Assembly (NCBI GenBank): GCA_015345905.1
Contig: JADDTR010000003.1
Span: forward strand, 1,302,001 to 1,366,000
Source: Aotearoamyces nothofagi
Lineage: Eukaryota > Ascomycota > Leotiomycetes > Leotiales > Tympanidaceae
DNA length: 64,000 nucleotides
Reading direction: 5' to 3'
Part shown: positions 1-62,096 of the stretch, one piece after another
How positions within the stretch are numbered: position 1 is the first letter of the stretch
Layout of the letters: each line of letters starts with the position of its first letter
Made by a program: the position numbers and the translations under genes
Notes under the pieces: model-generated
Told to the model about the DNA's origin: nothing
Databases searched by the model: none
What the model saw: only the letters and a program-made list of their open reading frames with translations

Positions 1-2701
1 ACATTCCAGCAGCGCTACAACTCGTCTCGAGATCATTCTCAGCAACACGAGTTGCCCTCTAGCATCAATAATGGAAACTCGTTGGAGAACATGATAGACA
101 CAAATAGAATGACAGCAATGCCATACTCAACTGGTAAAGGAATGGCAACATCTGCAGAAAATATACATATTGACTTCAACTAGGAAGCGAGAATTACACT
201 TGGATCCAACCACTATCTCGTGATATTGAGTCTCCTATCATGCCTCTCCTACCTTCTAATGGAACAATACCTCGCGGTTCCATAGATTTTGGTAGAGATG
301 AGCAAATATTTTCCGATACATCGTGGTCGAATGTGGGGGACGAACAACAATCCTTGGACTTCTCCTCTTATGGAGATGTATTTTTATCTGCCACAGAAGC
401 TGATATGTCCGGTGAACTCTCAGATATACATGAAAACCACTCGGCCATCTTACCTCAAGAGAGCCAACACCTTCACAATACACCCTGTATGCCTAGTATG
501 ACTGGCATAGACTCTCTTGGTGTACACGGACAGTTTGATATGGTTCTTAGCAGTCATTTCGACACAAAGAACCGAAACCAACCTGCTGTAGACCTAACTA
601 CCTCCTTGGACAGCAATGGACCTTGGAACGAGTTTCTAAATCCCCCATCGACCAATATCAACCCATATGGATACAATTATATCGGGCCTAATTCCATGAG
701 CCATCAGCCGCATGCTTCTAGTATGCCACATCGCATGGTAAACTTGGACCCTTGGTCTCATATCAATATTGCCGACAACCAAGGAGACACTAGGCACACA
801 GGATTTGGTACTTTTCCTCAACGCGTCTTCGGTAGCTCTGTTTCACAGATAGCGGAGCTGGATAATCACAATGACATGACCTCTCATGAACAACTAGATT
901 CAATTTCTCTAAGCCAATATCCATGTGACTCGGTACATTCGGAAGAGTCAATACCGGGATCGACTCCAGAGGGGTGGACGAATGTAACTGTGGTATCTGG
1001 CACCACGGTACAAGCACCGACAAAGGATACCGATCGAAAGGGATGTCGCAAAGGTCCTCTTGTAGAGCAACAAAGACTGCATGCTTCTGATATGAGGATT
1101 CTTGGAAATTGTTTACCTTGCAGGCTTGCAAAGAAAACTGTAAGTATTCCCAAACCGCCACATTTAAAATACTCACTCTCTAGTGTTCTGGTGGCCATAT
1201 TTGCGATCCTTGCAAGCGTGCAAAGAAACCTGTAAGTATTCCCAAACCGTAACATTTGAAATACTCATTCTCTAGTGTTTTAGTGGCCCTATATGTGATC
1301 CTTGGCCCCTAGCAGTAACCAAAATCTGTATAAGGGATAGACTTCCAGATCATACATCGTTATTCTTTCCAGGTACCTCGAACACAGTGTTATCGATAGC
1401 ATCGAGTGCTAGCTAATTATTCAAAGAGCCGCTAGTTGCAAACCTTGAGACGTCATCCATCAAGGAAGCTTTTGCCGGATGTATCTGGACTGACAATGGT
1501 ATGAAACTTGGATTCGATATCGGAAAGGGGTCGTTTCCTATTTCTGTGGTGGCCTATGAGTTCCAACCGCAAGACCATTCATCACTGGGTCTACGGTATC
1601 TTACAAACAATAAAGATGGTAACCATAGAAAAAGTATCACTCTCCATCAGGGGCCACCTCTAGGGATGCGGGATGCCAGTCCAGAAGATCTCCGATCCAA
1701 GTGCATAGCTTTCATCAGCTCCACTGTCAATCAGCAATGTGAACTAAAACTGCCCCTGTCAAGTGGCAAGTTTCAAGTTTCTTCCAAAATCTTCAAGGCT
1801 ATTTCTGTATACTATAAGAAAGTATTACATGAAGAAGAGGCGAGTACTGTTACTTAACTTCTGGGGGCCTACTAACTTCCATAGGCTGGGTTGATCGGAG
1901 AGGCTATGGAACTCAACGCAATAGGCTTGATTATGAGCCGCGTTATAACTCTCACACCCTCCTCAATCAAGACCGTCTCAAGCCGCCTCGTATCATCGAA
2001 CATCGAACCCGACCAGTCCTATGTGACGTGTAGGATTATAAGCAAGCAATTAAAACACATAATATATTCCATCTGGCGGAAAAAGATTTCGAGCGTGCTA
2101 TCAAAGCTTCAAAAAGAGTTCGATTTACATAACAGGCATAACTGGACGGTCTCGTTCGTCGTCATCATGATTATGTGCATCTGCATTGAAGCATCCCAGA
2201 TAATGACCGACGGAATTGTTATGAATGGGATATGTTACGAGAACAAGGACATCTCACCAACTATGAGTCTCGACCACTGTCGAGAATTGGATGAAGGGCT
2301 GTATAACCAGTTGAAGGTCACGTTCCTCATGTACTACCGCATCCACAAGGAACATGGTGACGGTAAGTTGCAAAACGGCTTTGAACCTCTTCGGCGCGAA
2401 TTCAGAGACCAGGATAGGAAATATATGGATGAGCCGACGTTAGCATTGGTAGAGGAGATTGAGCAGATCATCGAAGAAAATAGTAAGTTTGCTCATCACC
2501 TTGGCTAATTACATGGCTTTGTAATGGCTCCACTGACCTTTCATAGGGAAAGAGATGCAGGAACGAGCAAAGCAACCGGCATTTCGAACTCGTCGAAGCT
2601 CCTTGGCAAATCTCAAGGAGCATCACTATGAGCTCCGAGACATGAATCCGGGTAGACTGATGTGCGATTTCTTATTGGCAGTGGAAGGAAAGACAGGATA
2701 A
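1..2701 (+). CDS. Zn2Cys6-type transcription factor, 5' end outside window
   Basis: The reading frame enters from the left edge. Exons by frame and splice consensus are <1-133, 184-1139, 1184-1231, 1276-1372, 1427-1843, 1885-about 2040, a continuation to 2482, and 2547-2701 (TAA). The N-terminal half is Ser/Asn/Gln-rich and low in structure. The zinc cluster starts at the LGNCLPCRLAKKT segment, and its cysteines are spread over three exons by two 44-nt introns. The C-terminal half resembles fungal regulators with an internal zinc cluster followed by a CIRxRL-type segment (here ICIRDRLPDH), then Trp-rich helical stretches such as SIWRKKISSVLSK. DNA-binding transcriptional regulation in the nucleus is inferred. 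Two oddities: half of the zinc cluster is tandemly duplicated (see repeat 1116-1299), and the frame changes once between about 1885 and 2050 without an intron I can place, so the gene may be decaying or the base calls may hold an indel. Confidence 0.6.
1116..1299 (+). repeat. Tandem duplication of a 92-bp exon-intron unit
   Basis: Two adjacent 92-bp units (1116-1207 and 1208-1299) match at about 80 of 92 positions by hand count. Each holds the last bases of one exon, a complete 44-nt GT-AG intron (1140-1183; 1232-1275) and the start of the next exon. Both introns are phase 0. The duplication adds 16 codons in frame and creates the series C-x2-C-x6-C-x5-C-x2-C-x6-C-x5-C, where the final x2-C position is Trp. 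Confidence 0.9.
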
Positions 2702-16479: not shown

Positions 16480-19400
16480 ATGTCGTCCACTTCTTTAGGG
16501 AGGATCGTCAAGACCTCTAAAGGAAAGAAAGGAACGGCGCATCAGAAAAACCACAGATGGGAGTCCTTCACAGCAAAAGTAGCGAAACTAAACTCACTCG
16601 ACCCTCTACGGAGAGTTCGCCGTCATGACCTCGATGCGGAAGACCTTGAGACGACAACATCCTACTTCAAGAATAGTCTAGAAAGATGGCAAGAGCTCAA
16701 TATGTCTGGTCGATTCGTCGAATTCTCCCTCGAAGTCATGCCTATGAGCGACAGTTTACCCCAGATATTGCATTTCGAGGATAAGATAATGGATCTACTA
16801 GTTAGCTACCTCGAGATGAAAGAGAGGGAATCAATAGAGCCTATGCTATCGCTATTGACGGACTTTGCCCACGATCTTGGAACACGATTCGAGAAACACT
16901 ATGCAAGAGCCTTGGCGCTGGTTACGTCTATCGCGGGAACCCCCCAGGACGTGGAGGTCATTGAATGGAGCTTTACGTGCCTAGCATTTTTGTTCAAATA
17001 TCTCTCAAAGCTTCTCGTATCAGATTTACGCCCAACATACGATTTGATGGCACCTCTCCTAGGCAAAAGTCGCCAACAGCCACATATCGCTCGATTTGCT
17101 GCTGAAGCCATGAGTTTTCTCATAAAAAAAGCCGGGGCACCTGCTGTTCGAGAAAAGGCGCTCAATACAATTGTCAACCATGCCAAAATAGACCTTTTGA
17201 GCATACATAATACCCGCGAATATGGTCTCTACTACCATGGATTAATGACAATGTTCGCCGAAGCTATAAAGGGCAACGGCTTGACTATACATTCGTCAGG
17301 ACCTTCAATTATTCAGAGCCTCTTTCAGCAATTTGATAGTAGTAACTCCGGCGAGAATGACTTTTCCCCATGGGCTGATGTTATCTGCGGCGTTCTGACA
17401 AGCACTATCCATCATACGAGTTCAGACACATTCACAGAAATCCTAGCAATGGTCTTGAAGCAATCGACAGACGCTCTTGATTCATTTGCAGAGTCTCAAT
17501 CAACAGAGAAATTTAAGCTCTTGATGTTATCTGCTAGAACTATTGGAGTTGTTTCAGGTGCCCGAAAAGGGTCAAGAATCAGTGACTGGCCATCCGTACT
17601 TGAAGTTTTATCGAAAATCTTGGATGCCTTATCCAAGAGTACTAAGAGCTCATCGCTATATTCTGAGGACCCTCAACTATGGCGCTGTGTTATATTGAGC
17701 ACTTCTATTGCCCTTCAGTACGCTCCCATGGATGCTCTCATCCCTTTCATTCCTGGATATATGAACGCACTTGCAAAAGAACCACTAGCCAGATGGTTCT
17801 TGTTATTCTGTTCTTACTTGGCTCAAGTTGAAGTAGAACGTTTCCGAATCATTGTTTTGCCTTACTTTCAAAGGTTCGAGAGCTTCCCCTTCCTACTAGT
17901 TATACGTTACTGACTCGATAGATTCATTGTTGCCCACTGGTCTGACGCTGACAATGAGGATTCTTTATGTGTTCTGATACCTAATATGGTGTCCTCGGGT
18001 GTCCTCATAAGTAGCTATGGTGGTAAGGACGGGTTTAACATACCTCAATCATGGCAAGACCAGGTTGTGAGCAAATTTGAACGCTTGGAGGTGTCGCCAT
18101 TTCCTGAGCAGGTCTCACCAGCATCCCACAGTAAAGATGGCAAAACTTGGCATGATCGCTGCCTACCTAAATACTATTCTTTGCTGGAAATCTTAAAGTG
18201 CACGGAGGTACATCCATCGACGAATGCGAGAATTGCTGAAATACTGTTAAGAAAACTTAAACTCGCTTTACGACCTTCTTCGGCTCTCGCACTCGATGAA
18301 GCTCACTTTATCGTTGGACGTGGCTTCAATGCATTTTCCCGTATGAGCAAAGGCGCTGGCAAATCAGAAATTGCCTTGAAGCCCTTGCTTCGAGCAGCTG
18401 CTCCACGATATTCTCGTCTGCCCAGCTTCCTCGAGGCTATGCTTTCTTACGAAACTAGTCTGGCAAATTCATCGTCTAAGTTAGCCACAGCTGACAAGGA
18501 TACAATCCAGTGGTCGGCTGACACAGATGATAACATCGATTTACTCATCGGCTCACTTGTAGATAATCTGTCCACCGATTCTCATGACCTCCGTCTTATT
18601 TCTCTTCTCCTCTTAGATCACCTTCATGAGCTGGCTACTAGGAACAGTTCAGAAGTGTTGACAACGATGCTTTTGATTGAGCAGACGCCGTTAGATTTGC
18701 AGACTGCTCGCTCTGTGTCAATGCACATCCGCAAGCTTGCATCCATGTATAAGCACCATACATCGGATTTGATATTGAGTAAAGCGATTCCCTATTTTTG
18801 CTTCGGTATGCTCACGGTCAAATTTGCGCAAATTTGGGAGGATGCAAGTGCCGCTCTTGCCCAAATTTCTGAAACGATTACTGGTGAGGATACAATTGCT
18901 GAACTTGCATTCCGCTGGTTAGAGACTCCATCAGCTGTCTGGGATGGGTCTGCAAGAAATGTTGAACAAGACCGTAATGGAGGACTCACGGATTTTGAAT
19001 GCTCCAATCTCATCCGCCTTAATCAACTTGCCTCGGAAGTTGAATCACAGATCAGAAATTCCCAAAGTTTGATGCTTCAAAAGTTTGAGAATGCACAACA
19101 GCTCGTTGCTGAGAGACCATCTATTTCCCGTGCTCAGGCTTTGCGGGTACTTTCAGGTACCCCACAGATTGCTGAACGTCGATCACGCCAACTCGTCCCC
19201 ATGTTTTTGTCTTGGGCAAGACATGAAAACCATGTTTCTGAACACTCCGGTAAAGATTTTATAGAGATTGCTAGTGACTGGACAAGGAGAGACCAGAAAG
19301 GCCAACTTGATCTATTTTGTTTATTTACAAATCCAAGGGTTCTATATAAATCGACTGAAGTCTACTCGGCTTTACTCGCTCTTTTAGCGAATGGGGATCT

Positions 19401-22400
19401 AGAGATACAAAAATCGGCTTTAAAAGCCATCTTCACATGGAAGTCTACCAGTGTTAGGCCTTACGAGGAAAACCTTCTGAACCTTTTAGATGAAGCTCGC
19501 TTCAAGGACGAAATTACTATCCTCTTGCAGGGTCAGACACGCATTCAGCCTCAGCATCGGCCCGAACTGATGCCAGTATTATTAAGATTACTCTATGGAC
19601 GAACCATCTCAAGAAAAGGAGCAGCAAGTGGCAGGCAAGGCATGGAAGCTAGGAGACTGATTGTTCTAAGAAATCTGAGCGTAGAAGACACTGGCGCCTT
19701 CCTCCAGATTGCACTAGGTGAACTGAAGAACGTCAAGCTCATTGAAGATGGCCAGACGTCGCACGCTATATTTGACAATGAGATCTTGAGTGTCAGAAAA
19801 CAAGTGGGTTTTATAAATATGATGGAGGATGTGCTGAAAGAACTCGGAAGCAAAGTGATTCCTTTCACTGAGGGGCTACTGTCAGCAATTCTTTATTGCC
19901 TTGTATTGTCGTCACGAGAGCTACAGCGATTGGCTGATGTTGAGGAGGACGAGGAAGAGTCTGTTAGCCAGACATCCATGCTAAAGGTCATTCGTCAGAC
20001 TGGTTTCAAATGTCTAGTACTGCTCTTCACAAACGACGTTGTGTTCGACTGGTCTCCCTTCCTGGACATAATAGTTGTAGAGCTCGTCAGCCCCCGGCTT
20101 GACAAACTCCCAATTGAGACAGCTCAGGGCGTTTCTGGCCCTCTACAGTTAATCTCCGCGTGGTCAATATCACCCCGAACTGTTCTTTTCCTTGGTCGAG
20201 ATGAGCGAATCCTGGCGAAAGTAGCAGAATGTCTTGCTCCTCAGAAATCCAAAGACGATGTCAAACTATTCGTACTTGCTATCATGAAGCATATCGTCAA
20301 CAATGCCAGTGGGGCTACTTCGGAATATATCCATTTAACCACAGAAGTCAAGAATAATCTTCTTGATAAAAATATGGATACCTTCTTGTTGCAAATTGGT
20401 GGTGTTCTCCGTAGCCAGCAAGACCTCAGCAAAGAACTCCTAGAAGCTTGTGTAGAGACTCTTTCACAGCTTGCACCGTTTGTGTCTAGGTCTACACAGG
20501 CTTACAACCTAGTTGACATCTCAATCTTCCTATTGGATCAACCAACAAGGAGAGTCAATCCAAAGACAAAGAGTGGCCTGTTGCTAGTATTGGAACACTT
20601 TGTCCCCTTGTACGACCTTCAAGATGATATTGCATTGAAGGATAAGGTGTACAACACTACTACTTCTCTATTTGGTTTCTTCCGAGATAGGAAAAGTCGG
20701 GAGGTGTTGTCACGAGTTTTACTGGTATACTCGCGGAATGACCCAGTCCTTGCTGAAGTTGCAGCCATATGTGCAGATCTGAACTCTTTTGCTGATGCGC
20801 GAATGGACGAACCAGATTATGACCGTCGATTAAAGGCATTCAACACTATCAACAAGAAGAGGGACATTGCGTTCACAGCTTATCAATGGCGACCTATGCT
20901 TTACAATATGCTATTCTACATCAGACGCGATGAAGAGTTTAGCATATTATCTTCAAACTCTTCGGATGGTATTTGCAAATTCTTGGATAACGCCAGCATA
21001 GCCACAGAAGCAATTCAGCAAGCAGAATTCAAAGTCATTCTATCCACAATTTTACTGCCCGCTATCTATACAGGCGCCCGAGAAGCGTCAGAAGTCATTC
21101 GCCGCGAGTATTTAAAGGTTATGGCACATCTCGTTAGACAATTTCCAGATTGGAAGGATGTCGGTGATATGCATGGTTTGTTGGGTGGCGATGATGAGCT
21201 TGAAGCATCATTTTTCAATAATATCCTAACAACTGGCAAAGGACGACAATCAAATGCTCTTGGGCAATTGGCAATGGCCGCTAGCAAGTGCGAGATCAGC
21301 AGCGGAAACATAAGTCATTTCTTCATTCCCCTCATCGAACACTTCATCTTTGATCGGGCTGAGGGCAATGATGCACATAATCTTGCTGCTGAAGCCACAA
21401 CTACTGTAGGTGTACTTGCAGGTTCGCTAGAGTGGCCTCAGTACAGGGCACTACTACGAAGATTCATTGGATATATTACTGCTAAGCCTGATCTCGAGAA
21501 GCAGATAATCAGACTCCTTGGCAAAGTCATTGATGCTTTAGCTATGGCAGCCGAAAGCAGAGAACGCAACTTGGTACCACAACCAGATATCATGCAAATC
21601 AAAGATATTCAAGCAGGCCAAATGGACGATGCAGCTACAGAACCTCTCTCCACCTTAGCGTCCACATTACCAAAGCAAACGAAATTCATTGAGGACTTAA
21701 CAGCAAATATCCTTCCTCCTTTGATTGCATACCTTCACGACAAGGATGAGTCGACAGTCAGCTTACGTGTGCCAGTTGCTATTATAATTGTCAGACTACT
21801 GAAGTTACTCCCTCAAGAACAGTTGGCCGAGAGGCTGCCTCCAGTTCTTACAGACATCTGCCACATTCTACGAAGCAAAGCTCAAGAGTCTCGAGACATG
21901 ACCAGAGATACATTGACAAAGGTCTGCGTCATCCTCGGCCCATCGTGCTTTGGCTTTGTGTTAAAGGAGCTCAGGGGAGCATTGGCCCGCGGCTACCAGT
22001 TGCATGTCCTCTCATATACGATGCACTCCATCCTTGTAGCCACCACACCCGAGTACTCTCCGGGTGATTTAGACTACTGCCTACCATCTATAGTTGCTAT
22101 CATCATGGATGATATATTTGGTGCTACTGGACAAGAGAAGGACGCAGAAGAATACGTCAGCAAAATGAAGGAAGTGAAGAGTAGTAAAAGTCATGATTCG
22201 ATGGAGTTGATTGCAAAGACTGCTACACTGAGTCGCTTAACGGATCTTGTTCGCCCAATACAGGTGCTTCTGAAAGAAAAGTTGAATCTCCGCATGGTCA
22301 GAAAGATTGATGAGTTACTCAACCGTATCACCGCTGGATTACTAAAAAATACGGCTGCTCATAGCAGAGACAGTTTGATATTCTGTTATGAGGTCATTCA

Positions 22401-24501
22401 AGATGTCTACAATAGCAACAAGCCACAAGCAAAAATTAAAGATGACTACAGGCTCAAAAAATATCTCGTTCAGCGGGGAGCTAAAAAGAGTGGGAACCGT
22501 GGTAGTACGACTATCTATACCCATAAGCTGGTCAGGTTCGCATTCGACGTTCTAAGATCAGTTCTCAAAAAATACGAAAACCTGAGAACTCCTGCAAATC
22601 TTGCCGGGTTTGTGCCAATCATTGGAGACTCCCTTGTCCAAGCTGAGGAGGAGGTTAAACTTTCGGCTTTTCGCCTACTCACAACAATTGTCAAAGTCCC
22701 CCTCAAAATCACCAACGATGGTACAAATCTTTATAAAATAGCTGCCGTTGAAGCAACACGGAGTATATCGGCTTCTTCTTCGACGTCATCTGATATATCA
22801 CAAGCAGCTCTGAAGCTTATTTCGGTCATTCTACGTGAGCGTAGTGATGTCTCTATTAAAGATTCTGAAGTCGATGATTTATTAGCAAGGCTGAAGGAGG
22901 ACATGACAGACCCCGAGCGGCGACATGTGACTTTCAACTTCTTGCGATCTGTTTTAGACTCAAAAGTTCAAAGTGCAACGATTTACGACACCATGGATTA
23001 TGTCGGAACCATCATGGTGACCAACGATGACAAGGATACTAGAGACCTTGCACGTGGCGCTTACTTCCAGTTCCTTCGAGAGTATCCACAGAAGAAGAAT
23101 CGGTGGTCAAAACAGCTCGGCTTCATCGTAGCGAATCTAAAATATGAAAGGGAAGGAGGTCGATTGTCAATTCTCGAAGTTATCCACCTATTACTCTCCA
23201 AGTCATCAAATGAATTTGTGCAGGAGGTTTCAGCGACATGCTTTGTACCTCTAATCTTCGTTCTAGTCAATGACGACAGCGAGAAGTGTCGTATGACGGC
23301 TGGCGAAGTGATAAAGGAGATTTTCAGAAAAGCAGATAAGAAGCGTATGCAAACCTTCTTGGACCTTCTGCGATCATGGACGCAGCAGAGCGAAAATACG
23401 TCGGTGCTACGCCTGGCGTTCCAAAGTTATGGCTTTTACTATGAAGTGCAGACTACGCCAGATAGTCACGACGTAGAAATCTTGCAAAGCAGCATTTTAA
23501 CAGCACTGACGAGCTCAAAAGATGCACAGTTAGATTGGGAACTTGTTTACTCAGCCCTCCAACTCACATCAACTCTGTGCGAAAGGTTTCCATCTATGCT
23601 CCTATCACCCAACACATCTGGAATATGGGCAGCTGTACGAACTTGCCTATCATATCCTCATGCGTGGGTGAAACTATCTTCAGCAAGGCTGATGGGTATA
23701 TACTACGCCGATTTCGCCAGGGTCAATATTGAGAACAACCTCCAGGGGCTTCCTCTAAATGGTTCGCAAGGTTTACAGTTGGGCGCAGAAGACATTCGAG
23801 ACCTGATCCGACGAACCGCAAGTATGTTCAAGACACCTGGACTAACTGAACTCCTCGCGAACGAAATTGTCAAGGATCTTGTCTTTCTCGGACGATGTGC
23901 TGCGGCTGGCAATTTGAGCTGGATCCCTGATCACGCTGCAAATGCAGTAGTTTCGGATGACGAGGACGATGTTGTTGGTAATGATGGTAAAAGACAACAG
24001 ACTGCGCTCAACTACCTATTCGGAAGGCTCTCATTCATTCTACGCCGAGAGACTTCTCCCCCTAGAGCGCCAATATTGATACCGAAAACTGCTGCTCTTC
24101 AACTGCTGGAGATACTATGCAGTAAGTTGGATGGACCGACGCTTCTACCGTCATTACAAACAATTTTGCTTCCTCTACATAACTTGACAGATAGAAGCAT
24201 TCCAACTCCATACTCAACCGATGATCTGTTCAAATCCGGTTACGAAGCCATAAAGGTTACTAGTCAAGAACTGATGGCAACACTACAAAAGCAATGTGGC
24301 ACCGCAGAGTATACCAGCGAGCTCTTGAAGGTGCGAGAAGGTGTCAAAGAGAGAAGAAATCAGAGATCAAGTAAGAGAAAGATTGAAGCAGTGTCTGCGC
24401 CCGAAAAGTTTGGGAAAGATAAGCAGAAGAAAGTTGAGAGAAAGAAGGAGAGAAGGAAGGAGAAGGGTATGGAGCATAGAGACCAACGAAGAGGGTACTA
24501 A
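16480..24501 (+). CDS. UTP20: UTP20, U3 snoRNP/SSU processome component
   Basis: Exons 16480-17873 and 17922-24501 around a 48-nt intron; about 2657 aa, close to the usual 2500-2800. Utp20 is a giant helical-repeat scaffold of the small-subunit processome, needed for 18S rRNA maturation in the nucleolus. The N-terminus HQKNHRWESFTAKVAKL is characteristic of the family. The central part is the DRIM region, and the whole protein is alpha-solenoid-like without catalytic motifs. The C-terminus is very basic (KRKIEAVSAPEKFGKDKQKK...), as in yeast and human Utp20. I chose ATG 16480 over the in-frame ATGs at 16426 and 16450 because the 18 extra residues are not family-like. It is convergent with ZIM17 (228 bp apart). 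Confidence 0.95.
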
Positions 24502-25762: not shown

Positions 25763-28703
25763 ATGATATCAGGTCGTGGGAGAGGCAAGATTCGGCCTCC
25801 AAGACGAGTAAGTTCCTACCACATTGCTAGCGTTTCCTATCCACTCCAAAGGTCAATACAAACCTCAGTGTCTGTGAAACGGCTTTCCCTCCTTTAATGG
25901 TCCATACGGAATGAGAGAGTATCTGTCCAAGTCGAGATAAATCACAGTGACTCATTTGGCTATCTTCTACTCACCCACAGGCATCTTGTCGCCGTGTCAC
26001 TATCGCAAGATCTTGACAGCACACTGGCATTTGCGATGCAGCGCAATCCTGTAATGCGCCCTTTGGTCTTGCCTATTTTAATAGCCCTAACTTATTCCCT
26101 ATCCTCCAAGCAATACCGATTTAGGGGATATGTAACTGACTTTTCGGTTGAGCAGGGTTTAGTCGGCCAGAGCGATAGTAACGACTTCGACGTTCAGTGG
26201 GATATATTGAAGTCTGCGCTTCGAGAAATTCACACCAAGAACGCCTCGAAACTTTCATTCGAACAGCTATACCGTGCCTCTTACAAGATTGTGCTGAAGA
26301 AGAAGGGAGACATCCTCTACGACAGAGTCAAGCAGTTCGAGGAGCATTGGTTTGGCAGTGAGGTTATGCCCCGGATTCAGACCTTAATCACAAAAAGCCT
26401 CACCAGCATTACCTTAGGTGGTGTTCCCGGTACAACGGCCAATCAGAGAAGGCTCACCGGGGAGAAATTTCTGAAGGGGCTTAAGGAAGCTTGGGAGGAT
26501 CACAATACGTGTATGAATATGACTACAGATGTCTTAATGTACATGGACCGAGTTTATTGCACCGAAAACCGAAGGCCTTCAATATTCACAACCTCTATGG
26601 GCCTTTTCCGAGAACATATACTAAGGTCCAAACTCGTAGCTACGGAATCCGATATTGTCACTTTTGACATTCTCAACTCAGTCCTTCTTGACCAGATCCA
26701 GATGGAGCGCGAAGGTGATGTCATCGATAAGAATCTCATCCGCTCCTGTGTTTATATGCTAGAAGGTCTATATGAGACAGACGATGACAACGAGAATGAG
26801 AAGCTGTACTTGACTGTGTTCGAGCCTGAGTTTTTGAGAACTAGTCAACAGTTCTATCAAAAGGAGTGTATGACGCTGCTTCGGGACTCGGATGCCAGCA
26901 CCTGGCTTCGGCAAACGCAGAAGAGACTTGTAGAAGAGGCCGATCGATGTCGCACCACAATATCGCTTCTCACAGCCTCAAAGATAGCACGAGTCGTCGA
27001 GGCCGAACTAATTGGCAGTCATCTCCAAGAGTTTATTGCACTAGAAGGTAGCGGTGTCAAGGTGATGATCACAAATGACCGCTTTGATGATTTGACACTA
27101 CTTTATCAGAATATTGCCCGCATCGATTCGAAAAAGGAAGCTTTGAGAGACTCTTTACAAGCTCGTGTTGTCGACCTAGGCACCGAGATCAACAAGAATA
27201 TTCTCAACACCAACTTCGCTACTCCGCAGAAGATAGATGACAGCAATAAAGCGGAAAAGACCAAGGCGGCGCCACTAAACGCGGCAGCCCAGCAGACAGC
27301 AGCAGCAATCAAGTGGGTTGATGAAGTCCTGCAGCTCAAGGACAAATTCGACAATATGTGGAAGATATGCTTCAAAGAAGACCTTATTCTGCAAACGGCA
27401 TTAACGAAGAGCTTCTCTGATTTTATCAACGTCTTTCCAAGAAGCTCTGAATACGTCTCGCTTTTCATTGATACAAATTTGAAAAGTGGCATCAAGGGCA
27501 GGACAGAAGCTGAAGTTGAAATTGTACTCGAAAAAGCAACTACATTACTCCGGTACATCCAAGACAAGGATATGTTCGAGCGATACTACAAGAAACATCT
27601 CGCTCGCCGCCTCTTGCATGGCAAATCGGAGAGTGCAGATGTTGAGAAGGCAATGATAGGTCGTATGAAGCAAGAGGTTGGCAGTTATTTCACGACTAAG
27701 CTCGAAGGAATGTTCAAGGATATGACCATGTCTGAAGAGTTAACAAGTGGATACCGGGCTCACATTCAGAATCTTGGAGACATAGATAAAAAGAACATCG
27801 ATCTAGGTGTCAGTGTTCTCACAAGCAACTCCTGGCCAATGGAAACAATGGGGGGTGCTTCCTCTCGTGGGGAGGACGGAACTCGCGTCCAATGCCAATG
27901 GCCCCCCGAAATTAAGTCACTCCAAGATAGTTTCACAAAGTACTACCTCAAGGAGCGCAATGGGAGGCAGCTATCATGGCTAGGCTTTACCGGCACCGCG
28001 GACATACGCTGCGTATTTCCCAAGATTCCGGGCAAGGAAGGTATTTTGGGCAGAGAGCGTAAACATGAGCTTACGGTACCCACATACGGCATGGTTGTCC
28101 TCCTACTCTTCAATGACCTTGAACCCGGTCAATCCATCACCTTCGAAGAAATTCTGCAGCAGACATTGATCTCATCGACCGAACTTCAGCGAATTCTCAC
28201 CACGCTATCAGTGATACCTAAAGCTAAGGTCCTGAACAAAGAGCCGGCCACCAAGGCTGTAAAACCCGGTGATCGATTCTCCTTCAACGAAGCCTTCACT
28301 AGCAAATCTGTAAGAATCAAGGCGCCCACCATCACGGGCGTTAACAAGGTGGAAGGCGAAGAGGAGAGAAAGGATACCGAGACTAAAAATGATGAGATGA
28401 GGGCTGGTGTTATTGAGGCTTGTGTAGTCCGGATCATGAAGTTTGTCCAATTTCTTCCACGTTTTCTTCGCATATCTTTTACTCTATGGGGATTTTTGCT
28501 CATGATACTGACTTGTGCATTATAATAGACAGCGAAAAGAGCTCTCCCATCAAAATCTCTTCACCGAAGTTATCACTCAGCTTTCTAGCCGCTTCCGGCC
28601 TGATCTTACTATGGTCAAGAAGCGTGTTGAAAGCCTCATTGAGCGTGAGTATCTAGAGCGTGTTGAGGACGCCGAGAGGCCGACTTACCGCTATCTTGCT
28701 TAA
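25763..28703 (+). CDS. Cullin-3-like E3 ligase scaffold
   Basis: Exons 25763-25807, 26156-28440 and 28529-28703; 834 aa. Exon 1 encodes MISGRGRGKIRPPRR, the conserved start of fungal cullin-3, and joins to GLVGQSDSNDFDVQW over a 348-nt intron. Cullin repeats follow, then the cullin homology domain (FERYYKKHLARRLL, then LTSNSWPM), a winged-helix region (QSITFEEILQQT) and the neddylation segment VVRIMKQRKE with the acceptor Lys near residue 777. The C-terminus IEREYLERVEDAERPTYRYLA is typical. It would recruit BTB substrate adaptors and Rbx1-bound E2. The last intron uses a GTTTGT donor. A long frame begins at a spurious ATG inside intron 1 (25994), which could mislead gene predictors. Confidence 0.93.
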
Positions 28704-29272
28704 GCTTGCTTTCTAGCTTTCCCATTTGCGATTTCAGCGTTTATGATGGCATATTATGGCATTGGGTGGCCTAGGGAATGGAGTTTGCTTGAGCGATAAT
28801 GATCATGATATGATACATGAGGGGATGGCGTTCTTTGACATCCAGCGGATATCCTGTCTATTTTCCAACCGGTGAGACAGAAGCGAGATAGGTAGCATCC
28901 ATGTAGGAATACCCGCAATGTGATGGTGTCTACCATTCGTCTAGAACGCATTAGCATCTCTTTACATCAACTTGGCCTCGTAGTGATTCCATCTTACTAC
29001 TATGAATGATTAGATATTTCCAATGAAATACCCAGCATGTACAAGAGCTAATTATCTCATTATCAGGAGTAACGGAGAGGCTTATACGCTTAGCTTCGTC
29101 TTTTAGATGCCACAGATCCTCGACTGCCCTGCGTCATTTACGAAAGATAGATCGATACCCAATTCCTATAGTAGTAAGCGTATCATGTATATATAATTGT
29201 TTGAAGCAGTTTATAATTTATTTGACCCGGTCGAATTCAGAATAGAATAGTAGTATCTTATTTGAATTATAT
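28704..29272. other. Intergenic, rising AT content
   Basis: The 3' flank of the cullin gene. No gene is seen. AT content rises toward the right, where the AT-rich island begins. Confidence 0.5.
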
Positions 29273-29483
29273 TGTGACGAGGTCATCGGCCGCTTCGCTA
29301 AAATCCTACTGGTCGGCCCTACGCAGGGCTCCGGGGCCCCTCGGATTTTGCCGTGACCTTGCAGGCGAGGTCATGTGATATAATAGTCATGTGATACTGT
29401 AGATATAAATAAATATTGGCCTTATATATAAGGTTTAGTCCTATAACCTACTTGAGCTATATATATATAATATATTTTAGACA
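29273..29483. mobile_element. Solo LTR-like fossil, probably Ty3/Gypsy type
   Basis: About 211 bp with TGT...ACA ends, a GC-rich first third (29281-29360) and an AT-rich second half with TATA-like boxes, as in fungal Gypsy LTRs. No second copy and no recognisable internal genes are seen in the window, so this is a solo or broken copy. The family call is inference from layout only. Heavy AT bias next to it suggests an old, RIP-mutated insertion. Confidence 0.4.
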
Positions 29484-30650
29484 CCAAAGGTAAGATCTTA
29501 CTTTTATATAATAATAACAACAATAATAGTCTCTTCTACTACTTTTATTAATCTCTATAATAGAGAAAGATAAATATAGTTTTTTCTTTCTTTTTCTCTT
29601 CTCTTTCTCTAGCTTTTAAATAAGTTATAGATACTAATAGTCTATATAATATTAGAAATCTCTCTCTCTTTCTATAAAAAGTTCTCTAAATCTATCTATC
29701 TATCTTTATCTATCTATCTACTTTTATTTATCTATAAGCTCTTATTTATCTATAAACTTTTATCTATTTATAAACTTTTATCTACTTAAAAGCTTTTTTC
29801 TATTTATAAACTTTTATCTATCTATAAATAGATTTCTTTTCTATCTTCTTTATCTATTTATAAAAATATTCTCTTTTTATTACTATCTAAGTCTATCTAT
29901 AAATAGACTTCTCTTCTATTATTTAAATCTATTTATAAATAGACTTCTTCTCTTTTAGATAAGATATTACTATTAAACTAGTTGATAGTTTAATTTAATC
30001 TAGTCTTAAAAGTAATTTATAAACTATTTCAAAGACTGAACTATTTAGAATAGTAGAGATAGAGATTATAATTAATAGAGTTGTTATTATCTAAAAGACA
30101 ATAGTAATTGTAAACTCTGATATATATATCTAAATAGTTCTAAACTACTTTTAGATCTTCTTATATAAACAATTTATTATATATCTCTTCTCTACTCTTA
30201 TAACTATAATATTTGTAAAGCTTGTTGATATAGTATAATAGAGTCTATTATAGTTGCTTTTGCTTTTATAATAATTTCAGATTATTCTACTACTATAAAC
30301 TCTATTATAAACTCTATATTATAAGCTTTAAATCAGACTATTCTTACTTTCTCTAAGGCTTCTGAGATTTTCTTTATTATTAGAGAGACTATTATTTCAA
30401 TAGAATAGAGTTGTAGTAAAGGTTTTATAAGATATAAAAAGAGAGAATTGTAGATATAATATATTCTTTTCAAGATATAAGAGTAAGAGGTTTTTTAGAA
30501 TATAGTAAAGATTAAAGTAATATTTTATATTGAAGCTACTGTCTATCCAATTTACTCAGTTGTTATATCTGCTTGAATTGCTCTCTTCTCTTTTTACCTC
30601 TTACTAGGTTATAGTAGCCCCTTTCGGACTGGCTCTAGATTATAGATAAA
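29484..30650. repeat. AT-rich, RIP-like block without genes
   Basis: Overwhelmingly A and T, full of TA steps, with short TCTA/TCTATC microsatellite runs near 29690-29780 and repeated CTATTTATAAA-like words. No open frame longer than a few dozen codons. This is what repeat-induced point mutation leaves of former transposons. No parent element can be named. Confidence 0.8.
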
Positions 30651-30695
30651 CGTTGATATATTGCCTTTCTTGAGGTCATTTACAATCAGATCAGT

Positions 30696-31043
30696 TTGTA
30701 CTGTAAAAACAGATTTCTCTTATTCTTAGATGATAAAACCTCCGCCTCTGTAAGGGGTGACGAGGGGTGGAAAGATCGCCGCGTGATGCTGAATCTATAC
30801 AACAATCCGGCCGACAATAGAGGGCTGAAGGGTACCTATTGTGCTTTTAAGAGCATCGCGAAGCACTATCTGCCTCGGAACAAGCACTGCGAATCGGGGG
30901 TTTTGGGGGAGGGCGTTTGCTTTGTAAAGATGGCACACAACAAATGGGACGAGAATGGTATTGCGCAATATGTTGATATTTCGGCGGATATTGTTGAGTC
31001 GAGGGTGGTAGAGAGGTTCTTGAAGGCGCTGTCGGGGCTGTGA
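30696..31043 (+). pseudogene. 5'-truncated gene remnant of unknown family
   Basis: A frame with normal codon composition emerges abruptly from the AT-rich block and ends at TGA 31041-31043. It has no plausible ATG start at its left end; the first codons (YCKNRFLLFLDD) are AT-rich. The clean part runs from WKDRRVMLNLYNNPADNRGL to the C-terminal VVERFLKALSGL and looks like the last exon of a folded protein. I do not recognise the family. An acceptor-like CTTATTCTTAG near 30727 could mark an exon start, with the upstream part lost to the AT-rich block. It may also be a short intact gene with an unseen first exon. Confidence 0.4.
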
Positions 31044-31810
31044 TCGAAGGGCAGGATCTTTCGTTGGATGGGAGAGGTCAGAAATAGAACGGGGATGCAG
31101 ATCTGATAGTGCAGGTTAAACTCGGACTGATGATGATGACGCCGAGTCTCCGAAGGTCCGTGGCACGGGATCCGTGGCTTTGCCTCTAATTTCAGCCACA
31201 AATGCAAACCTCTCATTTACCCCGCGATTTTGAGTCGCACTCATCGCGGTAAGAGTTGAAGCAATCAACTGATTAAGACTACAATTAATTAAATTAAATA
31301 CTGGATAATGTAGTGATCTTTTCCTGCTGTGCTATATTTCTAGCACTTCATATAATGAGAATATATACTATTCATGTACACATTACACAAGACCTGCAAA
31401 GAGAGGAAAGAGGAACTCAGTATCACGTGAACTAACAGTTAGGCCAAATTTGGCACTTGTCCTCCCCGTGGCCAGAATTGGATGTAAGTGAAAACACGAC
31501 AGTTAGGCCATATCCAACCCTCTGGGGCTTCTATCTGCGCCTCAAATTCAGGCCGTTAGATCGAACGTCAGAATTAGCAGTCGTACCCCGGGTTGTTCTT
31601 AATTGCAGTCGTTTCTTCAGTATCTCTTACTTCAAGCACCTGTTTTCAACGCCACCCCTCCCTACTCGGCCACCTTCACGTGTACTATAAGTGAGGGTCA
31701 GAGAATTCAACTTTGGATCGCTTTAGTATCTAAAAGACCTACGAAAGACTTCTCCCCCTTTCAACCTGTTCGTTGCTATCTATTCTCTTTTCTTTCTCTC
31801 TCTTACAAGC
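31044..31810. other. Intergenic, upstream of MADS-box gene
   Basis: No gene supported. The right end is pyrimidine-rich (about 31740-31805), as expected for a transcription start just before ATG 31811. Two short direct copies of an ACAGTTAGGCCA word occur near 31433 and 31498. Confidence 0.45.
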
Positions 31811-32177
31811 ATGAGCTCCTTGAAAAATAGAAGAGAGCAATTAAGGAGGAGAAAGAACAACCTCTTTAGAAAGGCTCACGAGCTTGGAAAGCTGTGCAAC
31901 GTGGATATAGCAGTGATTATCTGCAAGAACGGTTGTTACTTTATATACAGGTCTATTGACCAAGAATCTTGGCCACCAACGATAGAGCAGCTTGTAAGTG
32001 TATACAATTGCTTGGATCTCTGTATAAATCAAGCTTGAACTTGAATAGCAAACGGTATACCCGATTCCTGAGAACCTGCTTCCATGGGATATCGAAACAA
32101 TGACCCGACGCACTGAGCATGGTTTGAAGAAGACTATAACGGAGATATATAAGAAGGACTGTTCGGACGTTCATTAA
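31811..32177 (+). CDS. Minimal MADS-box protein
   Basis: Exons 31811-31993 and 32049-32177 around a 55-nt phase-0 intron; 103 aa. The first 50 residues are an SRF-type MADS box: RRRKNNLFRKAHELGKLC, then VDIAVIICKNGCYFIYRS. The segment SWPPTIEQLQTVYPIPENLL follows, then a short basic tail. Canonical fungal MADS factors (Mcm1, Rlm1) are several hundred residues and start with GRxKIxIKxI before the NRxVTFxKR core. Here the N-terminus is shortened to MSSLKNRREQLR, so the DNA-contacting N-arm is largely missing. It may dimerise with full-length MADS proteins as a dominant modifier; that is inference. It lies inside the repeat-rich island, with a partial copy 950 bp downstream. Confidence 0.75.
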
Positions 32178-39763: not shown

Positions 39764-42700
39764 TCAAATGGTCTCCCACCCGCCATTATTAATGTCCGCC
39801 TCCAACTTCCTGCTAATGACGCTTGGCACGCCATGTTGTAGCCAGACATTCCTGAGCAAGGCGTCATATCTTTTCTGGTGTAAGAACAGTTGCCTTCCAT
39901 GTCGCAATCCAGGATCCACCTCGCCGTATTTGTCGATATAAGGCGCGACCATCCAGCTACCGGACGTGTGGTGCAGGTAGAAGACTGTGCATTTTCGGAT
40001 GTTAATGAAGAGGCCGATGTCTCGTTGACACCTGAGCAAACATTAGCATTAATGACCTTCGTGATGGTAATTCTGATGCTGTGATAGAGAGAGGGAATAG
40101 TTAATGGCTTACTTTCGCATATGCTGTTGGCCCCCACCTATCTGGCTTGGTGGTCGGCCACGTGACCCGCCTTCTTCCTTAAGACAGCAGATTGACTGAC
40201 CACAGAAAATCTCGCCGCAGAAGAGGCATAACATGGGGTCTGTCACATCCTTACCTGTAGTCGGACAGCGGCGTTTCATCGTCTCCTCCATGAGTGTATC
40301 GTAATTTTTGGGAAGTCCTATTAGCTCATAAATTACTGGATGAGAAACCATAATGTCATCGGCTTGAGGTTGTTCAGGGCATAGACCACCTCTCCACTTT
40401 GCTTGGTGGTGCATCCAGCCAGCGATAATGCACTGTGTTTCAGATATCTCATCTAGCTTTTGTGTGCTGAGTTCGCCGAGCTCTGCGCAACAGTCATCGA
40501 ATGATGGAAGACGAAGAGCATCGGTCAAACGGTCAAGCTCATCGGCATCTGGACTTGAAGATACGTAACTATTGAAGTGTATTCCATAACGGACATAGAG
40601 TAGCAAGGCAGTTTTGCGGAGGAATACCAACGCATACTTTTGCACGAATTCTCTGCAAGAGCCAATATCGCGTACCCATGGCTGGTCGAAGCCGCGCCTG
40701 GATGAATCTTGACCAGCTCCCATTCCAGATTGAGACATTAAGTAATTATCGATGTCAACTCTGGTGACGGTCGCGCATGCGCTACGAAAGGAAGCATATT
40801 GATCACCAGGTTGTGAGCCGGGTAGGACGCCAGTCCATGATAGCCACTGCTCAGACGGCATGTTGCGACCCATAGCGAGAATAACCTTGACAATTTCTGC
40901 AATATAGCAGAGACGGACAACGTGGATGATATCGATTCCTAGCACACTGGTTAGGCAAAATGAAGCTTCAGTGAGAAAGACAAATGTGTCTAGATTCAGT
41001 AACGCATTGTATCCGTGCATCTCCTCAACCATATCAAGCGTGAAGATCTGAGGATGCCCAACAAAGAGCTGGAATAATTGGCGTTCATGGTCTTGGGCAA
41101 ACTCAGACGCTGCTCGGTTATTTCCTGAAAATTTGAGGCCACCAACAGTTACGTAAGATATGGCCGTCTCAGCGAGGATACGAAGGTGTGTCAAATATTG
41201 CTGAGGAACCTTTTCGATAAATGTCGAGCAAGATTCCGAATCAATTCCACGTTGTTGGATTTCAATAGCGGAGATTGAAAAGCCTAGAGCCTGAACGAGA
41301 GTGTCAGTGGAATGTATATCATCACGTTCCTGCTGCTCATGGTCGTATATATGGTGAGTAGGCAGTTTGTTCCTCCTCATTGTCTCGCCTAGCCTACGAT
41401 ATACAGCCACAAGTTCAATCATAGCTGCATCAGTAACTTCAAAAGAATGGCCAACAGCCCCATTTACATCTGGCAAAATATCTGGTGGAAAGGCCCCGGG
41501 GGTCATTGCTGGTAAAGCCATGTTTTGAAAAGGTGTCCTGGACACGGCTGGAGTTGGAGAAGATGCCTGGGCCAACCATGCCTCAGATTGCAACTGAGAC
41601 AATTTGCCTGCTAGTGGTGACATTATGTTTTCTCCATTGTACTTGACAAATAAGTCATAGTGTTGAGAAGTGATACTGGCGTGACCATGACTTCCAGATT
41701 CTGCACTCTTTTGTGCTTTTTTGATCATAGGACCGAGTACCGATGATAGCCAGTACTCATATGGAACTGTTGGGACTAAAACACTGGGGTATGACTCTTC
41801 TTTGCCTTTCCATATGATTGGAAGGAATGCATTGCCCTGAGCTTTGCAAAGAGGGCATACGAATTCGTTTAGATCGAGCCTTTCCGGGTGGTGTCTCGCG
41901 ATTTGGTGTGAATGTCTTCGATGCGACGCCTCGTAGTAGAGTTCAAAGCATTTATAATGCATAATATGCCCACAGCCAACAGAGACTGGACCGGGTCGAG
42001 TCATACTGGAAGGGAAGCCTCTGCCAATGACCTGTCGCTCGGTAAACACTTCGGTTCCGTTGGATGTGACCTTCCGGACTTGCTCCCGGTTTTCACCAGC
42101 AAGACCAAAAGGCCTGATTGCATCGGCGGATCTATCAAGATTAGACGGTACACATGCTGCTTCGCGTACAAAGTCAGGATCTGTGAAGACAGTTTGACGT
42201 AGTATCCGGCTTTCTGTAAGCATTGCAAATGTTCCATAAGGCCGCGTGTCGTTCGTCTCTTCCTGACAGAGAATGCATGTACCTGATGGATATTTCCAGA
42301 AATTCTTATGCTCTTCTGCTTCAGACGCCATTTCTTCATCGCTCATTTCATCTTTTCCTTCCTCTTCACCCCAATCAATGTCCCCTTGGTTGTCAAGGAA
42401 GTTTCTTTGCTGCTGTTTAAATTGGGCCATTACTTTGGCCTGTCGTTCAAGCGCAGCTTTCTTCTTCTTTTCTCGCTCTTCGCCAGCGTTACTATTCGCC
42501 GGTGAAGCAGTAGATACCCTATCAGCAGGAACACCAAGGCGCACGAATGCAGTCTCGAAAGTTCGGGGTCTCTTCTGCTTCATACGTTTGAGAACGAGGC
42601 TGATTTTCGGGTGGCATGCTTTGAATGAATCTTTGGTAGACATCATCTCCAAGATCGCAACAATCGTCTTGGCTTGTGGGGCATCGTGCATGAAGTTACT

Positions 42701-45700
42701 TCGGGCAGTTCGTGTCAAAGCAATGTGGATAAACGAGTCCAATGGCTCTCCTGATGTTTCGTCATCCTTAGTCTTATCTTCCGAAATTGCAATGAGCACC
42801 AGATGAAGAACTACCTGGAGGAACGCTTCAACTCTCGTAGCTGGAACACTCGGGGTCAAGCTTTGTGCCTTAAGCGGATATAGTAACGAGTAGTAGATGA
42901 TCTGAGCAAATATGCCTGTCCCGGTGAAGGCAGGCATATCAATGAAGATTCCTGATTCAATTGGCCGGAGTTTTGGTTCAAACACGATCTCCGTAGCTGG
43001 TTTACCAGTCTTCTTTGCCATCCATGCTCTGTATGCATTCTCTGACTCTTCTCTCTGGTTCTTATTATAATGGGCAATATATGGATCGATGTCCTCCATG
43101 AAATGCTCCTTCAGTTCAAAAGTACCGACGTCAGACAAGCCCTCTGGAGCTTTAAAAGTAGTCATCTCATCAAGAATATCTTGACATTCTTCTTGTTCCT
43201 GAAACTTGTCAGGTAGCTTACTGCAGATCTCAGAGAATGATAGTGGCTTGAAGCAAAGGACATGAGTAATGTCTCGTCTCATAGCTAGCATATGCGGATT
43301 TGGTTCGTTTTCAATGGAGATGAGGGAAGTCCGATCGCTTAGTAGAACGATTAAGAGGTGAATAAGATCCTCGGCGACATCTAAGTGCTGGTTGTCATCA
43401 AGCACGTCTGACTTCTGCTCATAGATGCCCTTCATCCACATTTCCATACCGTAACGGTCGATCATCGACGCCAAAACTCGGCTTGGGGGGCATACGACCA
43501 TGGCAGTTTGCAGCAGAAAAATGTCTCGATGATGAGAGACATCGCGCTGAGCGACCCCTCGGTATGTACCAGCTTGGTGCCTCAAACTCATCCCATTCCG
43601 AACCCACATACTCGCCTTCATCTGAGCAAGCCACGCACAAACTCGCAGCGGATAGTCAAAAGCTGCCATAAGATGGTCTTCTGGACTATATTCACGCAAT
43701 GGCATCACTCTCTGGCCCATAGCCTTCGGCTTCTGTATCAGCTCCTCCGTGGTGAAGGTAAGCAGCTGCCTGAGTTCCTGACGAGACATGCTTTTGCCGC
43801 ACTCGATAAGCCATGAAAGTGTGTAATGAAGAGCGTGATGGAAGCTAATAGGCTGCTCCTCGACTATAAATTTGACAACGCTGTACTCTAAAGGATCTGG
43901 GTTGTCAAACTCGTAATCGGTGACCTTTTTGAACCTGATCTCTTCCTTAATCTCGGAACTTTCGAATCGTTTGCGCTCTGTGCCGAGGGAATTTAAAATA
44001 ACTGATTTTGCAGTGAAGCGTATAGCTCTTGCTATGCTGCTCATATCTGCTCCTTTATTCCACTTGAACGACTCAGAGAACTGACGACACAGGCGATTAA
44101 TTTCACGAGTGACCAGAGATGCGCTAATCCACGCGTCTGTCTCGTACTCAACATGTTCCCCCACAGCTCTCACATTAGGGCATATCCCTTGGTGAAGTTT
44201 AACTAGGTCAAGAAACTGCATCATGTAACGGTCATCCGTTCGAAGTTTCTCCTGAACATGATCGGAGCCAAATAAATACCTCAAGTCCATAAAGAAATGA
44301 TACATGCGACGATTAGTCACAGACCCAGTCTCGAACTTGAGTACAGCATTTGGGTTAATCTCGAAGGGGAAACCAACCTGTCGTGCGGTCAAGAATGTAA
44401 ATAGAATGGCCATCAGGTGGGTCAAAAAGTTTCCTCTTTCCACAATTTCGGAAGTGATGGATGGTGTCGTTAGCATCTGTAACGAAATGTTGATGATTGA
44501 GTGATCTGGCTCTCGATCTGCGATCAAATATAGCTGCGCAAGTAGAGTGTAGAGTCCGGCGAAGCGTAGTCCAAGGACACGCTTAAATTGTGGGATGGTA
44601 ACCACTGTTGAGATATATAGATCACGAAGATCTATTCGTACCTTTTTCCACATTCTTAAGTCGAAAAGTATCATCCAATCAAGCCGGACTCTCTCCCAAA
44701 GATCTTCATGCAAAGGTATAGAGTCATGGCCAGTGAAAGACTCTGGAGTCTCAAGCCAGTAGTGTGGCGGCTTCCCGACTTTTGCTAGACCCCCCTGCTT
44801 CATTCCGGGAGTTTTAGGGATCTCCATGTTGGCTTTAGCGTAAATATTAGGAGGGATAAGGGGTTCCGCAGTATCAGAATCCGAGGGAGTCAACTCCCTC
44901 TCCCGGCCAGGTCTATGAGGATCCGAAGGTGGTGGCGGTGGCGGCGGAGGCGGCGGAGGAGGATAGCCGGCCATGGTGGCCTCCTGGGTTTCAAGAGCTG
45001 TATCATCTTCCGTCATATCAACATCTCCGTCAGTATCCATATCCATCCGTGCCTCGATCTCGACCATCATAACATCCATTATTATATCCATTTCATCCTC
45101 ATCATCATTAACATTGTTATCCTCGCCGTCCTCATCGCGATCTTCTTCATCGTCATCATCGCTGTCATCATCCGAGGTCTGCGCTGCAGCAGCGGCCTGT
45201 TGCCGCAATATTTGTGCCTGCCGTATAAACATGTTTTCACGTCCGTTTATTCGATCATCCAACTCCTGGTCATCGAGACCATCCTTCCCAACCATAGCAT
45301 TGCTTGCCTCACTACCAGCATGCCATGCTTTGAGCATCTCTTCGCAGACAACATGGCGTAAAATACTATGATCATCGCCGACACTGCAGCCAGCTATGTC
45401 CCCTAGCCACTCAATGATACTACCACACATTTGTTCCCGAAATGTATCCCTTGCTGACCGAATACTGACCGTGACTTTGATTTGTTCAATGATTTTTGAC
45501 ACTTGAAGTAATTTCTCAATATTTGTATCATACTTAACTATCGTCCGACCCACATCATCAGTCTCGTGAGCTCGGGCAAGTGCTTCTGATGTTTTGACTT
45601 TGCATGCTCGTGCGACCTGGTCCCGTACTTCGTTTACGGTGTGCTTTTCATCGTTCCATAGCAACAGCGCATATTCGATAGGCTCTTCGACGATATCACC

Positions 45701-46396
45701 ACGGTAATAAGACGATGTAAGTCGTGACATGCGCTCATTATCCTTGATACTCTCAACCGTTTTTGGCATTCGAAGGTGTTCTGGAGAGCAAGAAATAACA
45801 TCACATATGTAATCGAACGCCCGCCCAATTGTCATGCGTATGCTTTCAAGAAGCTCGTCCGGCAGCCCAGCTGCTTCCTTTGCTTTCCCTGCTCTCCTTG
45901 ATTTATGCTCGCTTTCGCTGTGGATCGAACAATGTATGGGTAGGCGCCATGCCTCTGGGTCTCCACAATCGCAGCAGCCACTATTCCCTGGGGATATACT
46001 GATGTACACCATATGTCCGGTATGATCCGACGAGTCATAGCATTTACTGCATAGTACACATGTATCGTCTGCACTACATGTCTTACATCTGTATGTAGCT
46101 TCGCCGCTTTTGAATATGTGACCACATGCCTTCCCTCTCGCGCCCTCTGTGTATTCAGCCCCGTCTACCGCGCCTTGTGCTTGTCGAAGTTTCCATACAC
46201 CATTTGGGGCAGGCCTGTGGCCTTCGGGAAATAGTAATCGCATGTATTTGTCTTGCCCTCCTGCGAGAGACCAGAATAGGTTGTATAGAAGCGCTCTGTG
46301 GGCTGGCTCATTGTACCGGTTCTTGTATACGCGGGGAAGATCTCGCAAAAATTCGCAAAGCTGACGTTCCTGAGTCGTCATGTTTATGCTTTCCAT
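39764..46396 (-). CDS. UBR1: UBR1, N-end rule E3 ubiquitin ligase
   Basis: Exons 46396-40113 and 40031-39764 around an 81-nt intron; 2183 aa. Domains in order: UBR box (residues about 89-160: CGHIFKSGEATYRCKTC... CCDCGDPEAW), which reads basic N-degrons; a ClpS-like N-domain (about 235-320: EYALLLWNDEKHTVNE) for bulky hydrophobic N-degrons; an acidic stretch and a run of proline near 478-490; and a long helical body. The RING-H2 lies at about 1375-1515 (CILCQEETND... CGHIMHYKCFELYYE... FVCPLCKAQ). The C-terminal UBR autoinhibitory domain includes LFCGEIFCGQSICC and ends GGWETI after the second exon. With an E2 such as Rad6 it marks substrates for the proteasome. The small C-terminal exon restores the family ending, which supports the intron. 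Confidence 0.96.
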
Positions 46397-61363: not shown

Positions 61364-62096
61364 AAGGCGTATACATTTAGAATACTAAAGGTTTAATAAA
61401 TGATTCCATATCGACATCTTATGAGGGTCGTGTAATCACCATGGCACTCTCACTTTTCATTCATTGCGAAGATGTAGAACGAGCATTATGGCTTGTTCCT
61501 ATAATTCTTTGTATCGATTCATTTTTAGTTTAGTAGAGCTTTATATGATATCAAGGTCGAAAGTTGGCTATGTTATTTACCAGTAAACTCGAAGCTATTT
61601 ACCAGTAAACTCGAAGCTCGCCTCCTCGGCGAGCCGGAAATTCAAAGCTCAGGTCGGATTGAAGCTACTTTACCGCCGCTCTCTAAGGCCTCTCAGGTAA
61701 TTCCTATCTCTAAGCAATATAACTCGCTAAGAGAATAGTCGGTCGCTCGACAGGTATCTTGTCCTGCGCTGCGCTCTGGAACGATGCCTTTTGGTGTTCC
61801 GATCCCGTGAGCATCTACTGTAAAAGATATTCTCACCCCCCGGGGTGCATTTAATTGGTGCCGAGCTCCTTAAGCGAAAATTAGGCACGGCTCACACGAC
61901 ATCACATGACTGCGCGCTTCTACCGCGTCACACTTTCCACTCATCCTCAAGAGCATTCTAGACATGAGCGAGTTTTCAACTTACGGATAAATGCGAGCTG
62001 AATATAACCTAGTTGTGTTGGCGGTGTCCTATCTCGCAAAACGCTGATTCAGGTGTGCTTCAATTCATGATTTGAATCCGCGCCAACGCCACCGTG
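61364..62096. other. Intergenic with short repeat and hairpin; REV1 promoter
   Basis: 733 bp. The left half has the tandem repeat and hairpin at 61574-61634. The right part must contain the REV1 promoter. No gene seen. Confidence 0.5.
61574..61634. repeat. 22-bp perfect tandem repeat followed by a hairpin
   Basis: Two identical 22-bp copies (61574-61595 and 61596-61617), each starting TATTTACCAGTAAACTC. The second runs into a perfect 7-bp inverted repeat, GCTCGCC (61616-61622) and GGCGAGC (61628-61634), with a 5-base loop. Confidence 0.85.

Follow-up and report, generated by a model that had tools for sequence, protein, structure and literature searches.

The window analyzed here is a stretch of 64,000 nucleotides from the genome of Aotearoamyces nothofagi (G000:C3:1302001-1366000; assembly of 25.5 Mb in 55 contigs). 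The focal gene is represented by a predicted open model of 969 codons with six introns. The model starts outside the window, with its start codon 519 bases ahead of position 1 (L002:5482), and ends with a stop codon at about position 2700. The features of the model are listed in Table 1, in which all introns are predictions; for the intron beginning at 1373, the acceptor at 1435 was favored, with 1426 as a possible second choice. The host looks like a divergent fungal zinc-cluster gene resembling a transcription factor, for which DNA binding would be predicted. In the part that follows the cluster, the protein matched that of the paralog L021 (BLASTP, 45.1 bits, E 1e-9 in a single comparison, 21% identity over 343 columns). 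With the duplicated intron counted once, three focal intron sites coincided with those of L021, namely the site before Cys3, the phase-1 site after the post-cluster proline and the alignment column of 1840-1884, and the first two of these were also found in L017. At the third site the donor is GT in L021 and would be GC in the focal gene; L017 has no intron at this column, its third intron being placed differently in the alignment. Contig C22 carries two divergent paralogs of the focal gene on the same strand, separated by about 7 kb (L021, L022), with L021 at about 57.7 kb and L017 at about 64.6 kb.

Table 1. Features of the focal gene around the tandem repeat, in positions of the window
Feature	Position	Strand	Remarks
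First intron of model	134-183	+	prediction
Coding exon upstream of repeat introns	184-1139	+	host gene model
Exon end coding CLPCRLAKKT (C1, C2)	1110-1139	+	
Copy 1 of 92-bp unit	1116-1207	+	8 exon codons, 44-nt intron, 8 exon codons
Predicted intron, copy 1	1140-1183	+	44 nt, phase 0, GTAAGT...CTCTAG, YTRAY branch site absent
Chimeric middle exon coding CSGGHICDPCKRAKKP (C3, C4, C5 of new cluster)	1184-1231	+	48 nt
Copy 2 of 92-bp unit	1208-1299	+	80/92 identical to copy 1
Predicted intron, copy 2	1232-1275	+	44 nt, phase 0, GTAAGT...CTCTAG; in-frame TAA if retained
Exon coding CFSGPICDPWPLAVTKICIRDRLPDHTSLFFP (C6 and the degenerate distal half with C7, W, C8)	1276-1372	+	
CCTTG, first five bases of the unit a third time (also at 1116 and 1208)	1300-1304	+	junction microhomology
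Next predicted intron	1373-1435	+	63 nt, phase 1 after Pro codon as in L021/L017
GC-AG intron (probable)	1840-1884	+	45 nt, phase 0, donor GCGAGT; L021 GT-AG at same alignment column
Last intron of model	2483-2546	+	prediction

The 92-nt unit was present twice in tandem without any indel, and the probability of at least 80 matches in 92 positions by chance was 3e-33 (binomial, 27% background). Tandem Repeats Finder extended the repeat to 1304, with a score of 294. A tandem duplication carrying a whole 44-nt intron, as reported in the first-pass annotation, was thereby confirmed. The 12 differences between the copies were distributed over the left exon part (3), the intron (4) and the right exon part (5). 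An assembly artefact, in which a single unit was counted twice, was rejected and has a negligible probability, because two assembled copies of one unit should show few or no differences, while these copies differ at twelve of 92 bp in exons and intron alike. Ancient symmetry between the half-clusters, rather than a later duplication, was also rejected, as the two introns are identical at 40 of 44 positions. The same 12 differences, with a silent divergence (synonymous and intron sites) of about 0.12 per site, do not agree with the earlier description of the duplication as fresh.

The three duplicated cysteine codons encode Cys in both copies, and none of the eight exon differences alters a cysteine, although six of them alter a residue. 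Over the duplicated exon parts dN was 0.18 and dS was 0.23, which means that replacement changes were as frequent as silent ones and that the exons changed with almost no visible constraint, and the divergence of exons (8/48) and introns (4/44) did not differ significantly (Fisher, 0.36). Because dN was close to dS and the cysteines would be kept by chance with a probability of 0.21, selection on the duplicated exons is not demonstrated, and cysteine conservation was rejected as proof of it. At the junctions, both units start with CCTTGC, which in unit 1 lies within C-L-P-C (C1-C2), and the sequence after unit 2 starts with CCTTGG. The occurrence of CCTTG in both of the old Cys-x-Pro-Cys-type stretches suggests recombination or slippage between half-clusters.

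The donor hexamers, as well as the acceptor hexamers, were identical between the two predicted introns of the repeat. That both introns are in phase 0 and keep donor and acceptor was borne out, but for the branch region, which had also been described as intact, this was only partly the case: no YTRAY branch site was present in 1140-1183 or 1232-1275, whereas all four other modelled introns have one, and copy 2 carries CTCAT where copy 1 has CTCAC. Removal of both predicted introns keeps the reading frame across the joined exons, so that the 16 extra codons are in frame, as had been proposed; skipping of the middle exon also keeps the frame and would return the single-unit form, and retention of either intron introduces stops. 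This opens the possibility of a splicing switch, in which the middle exon would be skipped in some transcripts, giving a six-cysteine cluster in one form and a five-cysteine form with W in the other. The frame kept on skipping, the shared splice hexamers and the lack of a canonical branch site in both introns are compatible with such a switch. However, the skipped form would lack C5 and its match to the family profile is poorer, and we regard such a switch as highly doubtful.

The genome was also searched with a family-like query of our own making, which gave eight loci at E ≤0.5, all counts from this search being lower bounds. A predicted phase-0 GT/AG intron was readable directly before Cys3 in six of the eight (the focal gene, L017, L021, L015, L031, and L032), and the reading frame was open at this site in L013 and L016. 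The intron was at the same codon in five of the seven non-focal loci, of which L031 and L032 were weak matches (E 0.012 and 0.045). Because other family loci have an intron at the same site, the intron predates the duplication; by this comparison of sequences it is an old intron, multiplied and not created by the duplication, and creation by the duplication was rejected. The claim of an intron gain therefore stands for the multiplication of an old intron and fails for the creation of a new one, and with an intron older than the duplication the locus would, if both introns are spliced, fall into the class of tandem multiplication of a pre-existing intron. Two of the loci, L015 and L032, have the same upstream motif and intron followed by CDPSHH or CDPTHP (Cys-Asp-Pro-x-His), and the second half of the cluster is absent from them. 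In L021 the exon after the same intron (L021:2334-2372) reads CSPCSPGSPCEKC, with one cysteine beyond the family pattern; the same cluster half thus varies in another gene copy.

When the two introns are taken out of the model, the protein sequence of this region is GNCLPCRLAKKTCSGGHICDPCKRAKKPCFSGPICDPWPLAVTKICIRDRLPDHTSLFFP, with the cysteine spacing C-x2-C-x6-C-x5-C-x2-C-x6-C-x5-C-x2-W-x7-C. The fungal Zn2Cys6 motif consists of six cysteines arranged as CX2CX6CX5-12CX2CX6-8C. After removal of the two predicted introns, C1-C6 of the focal gene are spaced as CX2CX6CX5CX2CX6C, in agreement with the consensus cluster that the first-pass annotation had read in the first six cysteines, and an in-frame exon-intron-exon duplication within a zinc-cluster-type domain is supported. 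The same annotation had read the old final pair as CDPW. MAFFT gave both placements of this W, and the reading holds in the alignment that puts W at the family C5 as a substitution, but not in the one in which W is the family loop Trp and C5 is deleted. Under either alignment C5 is lost from the old distal half, and the single-unit form has five of the six cluster cysteines. A Trp in the C5-C6 loop was found in all 101 distinct profile regions, but in neither of the paralogs L021 and L031. The presence of Cys at C5 in 101/101 regions is by construction, as the pattern used for cutting the regions demands it.

The profile of these 101 distinct regions, from which the focal gene and L021 were left out, gave 43.8 bits for the two-unit protein and 34.7 bits for the exon-skipped form, and the two-unit protein fitted the family profile with E 4.8e-15 (five-sequence search). 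The best domain of the two-unit protein (41.1 bits) was on C1-C5 and the second (8.0 bits) on C5-C8, so the main match ends before C6. In whole-sequence score the distal right half, CFSGPICD, was below the proximal CSGGHICD by 5.8-6.0, 4.3-4.4 and 6.5-6.7 bits with profiles of 101, 3 and 6 sequences, respectively. Since it scored lower with all three profiles, the proximal part is now the family-like one, and the distal half (CFSGPICDPW) is degenerate as judged from its sequence. With Pfam Zn_clus (PF00172), the short C1-C6 stretch gave 11.3 bits and the single-unit stretch nothing, and the cut-off of 21 bits was not reached; longer focal constructs gave no Zn_clus match, and a weak Dickkopf_N match below the cut-off was the only one obtained. 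One of the five relatives tried passed the Zn_clus cut-off (L013, 24.5 bits), and the others stayed under it (L016, 20.2; L021, 19.0; P0121, 16.4; L017, 8.1). The focal gene is therefore like PF00172 in its C1-C6 spacing, and differs from it in a score under the cut-off and in two extra cysteines within the degenerate extra half.

The focal protein as query found nothing at E ≤0.001 among 3008 candidates, and no ortholog of it was found in the protein searches. A query of three aligned rows (the one-unit focal form, L021, and L017) matched a single protein, P0121, which is nearer to L017. The paralog L016 gave 679 database matches, and the closest to it among the best 120 of the 679 were an unnamed fungal protein at 79% and those of Claussenomyces sp. 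(78%) and Pseudogymnoascus (76%), so that the window is fungal as judged from its genes; Claussenomyces and Pseudogymnoascus belong to the Leotiomycetes. The six-cysteine pattern was present in 120 of 121 proteins (the best 120 of 679 and P0121), P0086 being the one without it, and the C5-C6 loop of these 120 was 12 residues long in 119 and 13 in one; a match to this pattern would not alone reveal a second unit. Like the focal gene, the one-unit relatives L013, L016, L017, L021, L031, and P0121 have a basic/Gly-Pro stretch followed by C-x2-C-x6-C, and L017, L021, and L031 also have the intron before Cys3. Unlike the focal gene, they have a single unit, with C5 present and 11 to 13 residues in the C5-C6 loop. 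As one-unit relatives occur both in the same genome and in the databases, a one-unit ancestor is supported. Among solved structures nothing significant was found, the one sequence listed being an ethanol regulon transcriptional factor at E 1.6.

Taken as a whole, the data incline us, by a little more than an even chance, to an in-frame half-cluster duplication after which the shifted C1-C6 cluster most likely binds both zinc ions. The ancestor would have had a one-unit cluster, CX2CX6|CX5CX2C...C, with the old phase-0 intron just before Cys3. An in-frame tandem duplication of 92 bp between two stretches coding Cys-x-Pro-Cys, with CCTTG in common, would then have given a product of eight cysteines, of which C1-C6 took the consensus Zn2Cys6 spacing. 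In this product copies of the old C2 and C3 would serve as C5 and C6, respectively, and the base finishing the new C5 codon would derive from the C2 codon. In place of the long C5-C6 loop of the family there would now be x6, and what had been the distal half, without C5, would persist as a degenerate linker, leaving the shifted C1-C6 as the putative ligands of the two zinc ions. Against a shifted cluster that binds zinc we counted the Zn_clus score below 21 bits, the similarity of dN and dS, the end of the main profile match before C6, the searches that found no ortholog, and the two introns without canonical branch sites.

Several of these points would also be expected if the gene were drifting, its cluster having been already broken or dispensable; the duplication would then be a neutral trace, with no functional cluster. 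The ortholog searches that found none, the values of dN and dS, the loss of C5 from the distal half, the low Zn_clus score and the unusual GC-AG donor at 1840 all point in this direction. However, the model stays open over its 969 codons with plausible introns, the part after the cluster still matches the paralog L021, neither copy has lost any of the three duplicated cysteines, and C1-C6 keep the consensus spacing, and for this gene we consider drift somewhat unlikely. A different order of events was also considered, in which C5 was lost first and the duplication then rescued the broken cluster with a new C5 and C6. The single-unit form has just five cluster cysteines, and the C2 codon would supply the C at the junction regardless of whether TGC had stood at the old downstream codon; but relaxed constraint after the duplication accounts equally well for the degenerate distal half, and a rescue seems to us distinctly improbable.

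Returning to a shifted C1-C6 cluster as the favored reading, we put forward as a tentative proposal, on which we would not insist, that a zinc cluster may have been rebuilt here in one step. A half-cluster and its intron would have been duplicated by recombination between similar Cys-x-Pro-Cys codons, with C5 and C6 more tightly spaced than in the relatives, and such an event would offer zinc-cluster regulators a route by which their metal site could be changed or restored.

Internal tandem duplication of a whole intron is known from Arabidopsis TOUCH3 (Knowles and McLysaght, 2006; Gao and Lynch, 2009; both as given in PMC4974935), and the passages of PMC4974935 on such cases term them multiplication of a pre-existing intron, apart from the creation of new introns. 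As in the TOUCH3-type cases, a pre-existing intron with both of its exon flanks was copied in tandem inside the focal gene. Unlike those cases, as far as these passages describe them, the breakpoints in the focal gene fall inside the zinc-cluster motif, and the putative metal site is shifted in register. The rise in intron number is shared with the AGGT-type creation of introns by tandem duplication, as outlined in the same source; the focal gene differs in that it gained coding sequence and no new splice sites, the whole old intron having been copied. Duplication of a whole intron is thus known, and the re-registering of a binuclear zinc cluster by such an event is the unusual part. In a limited literature search covering titles and the openings of abstracts, no paper among those listed dealt with a duplication inside a Zn2Cys6 motif or with a register-shifted cluster.

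If the shifted cluster works, a binuclear zinc cluster has been re-registered by a single in-frame event, which would be possible because the halves of the cluster are interchangeable, and the intron between the halves travels along with them. The focal locus is a small and clean case in which to test whether half-clusters act as modules in the large class of fungal Zn2Cys6 proteins. For intron biology, it adds one more case of intron multiplication.

Elsewhere in the window, no Rfam match was found at gathering thresholds. The interval 28001-32000 has a low GC content (0.38) and contains ATCT-rich arrays at 29690-29948, and a 22-nt unit is present in about two exact tandem copies at 61574-61618. 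The conserved neighbor genes encode UTP20 (17914-24501), a cullin (25898-28525), and a UBR1-like ubiquitin ligase (40109-46396).
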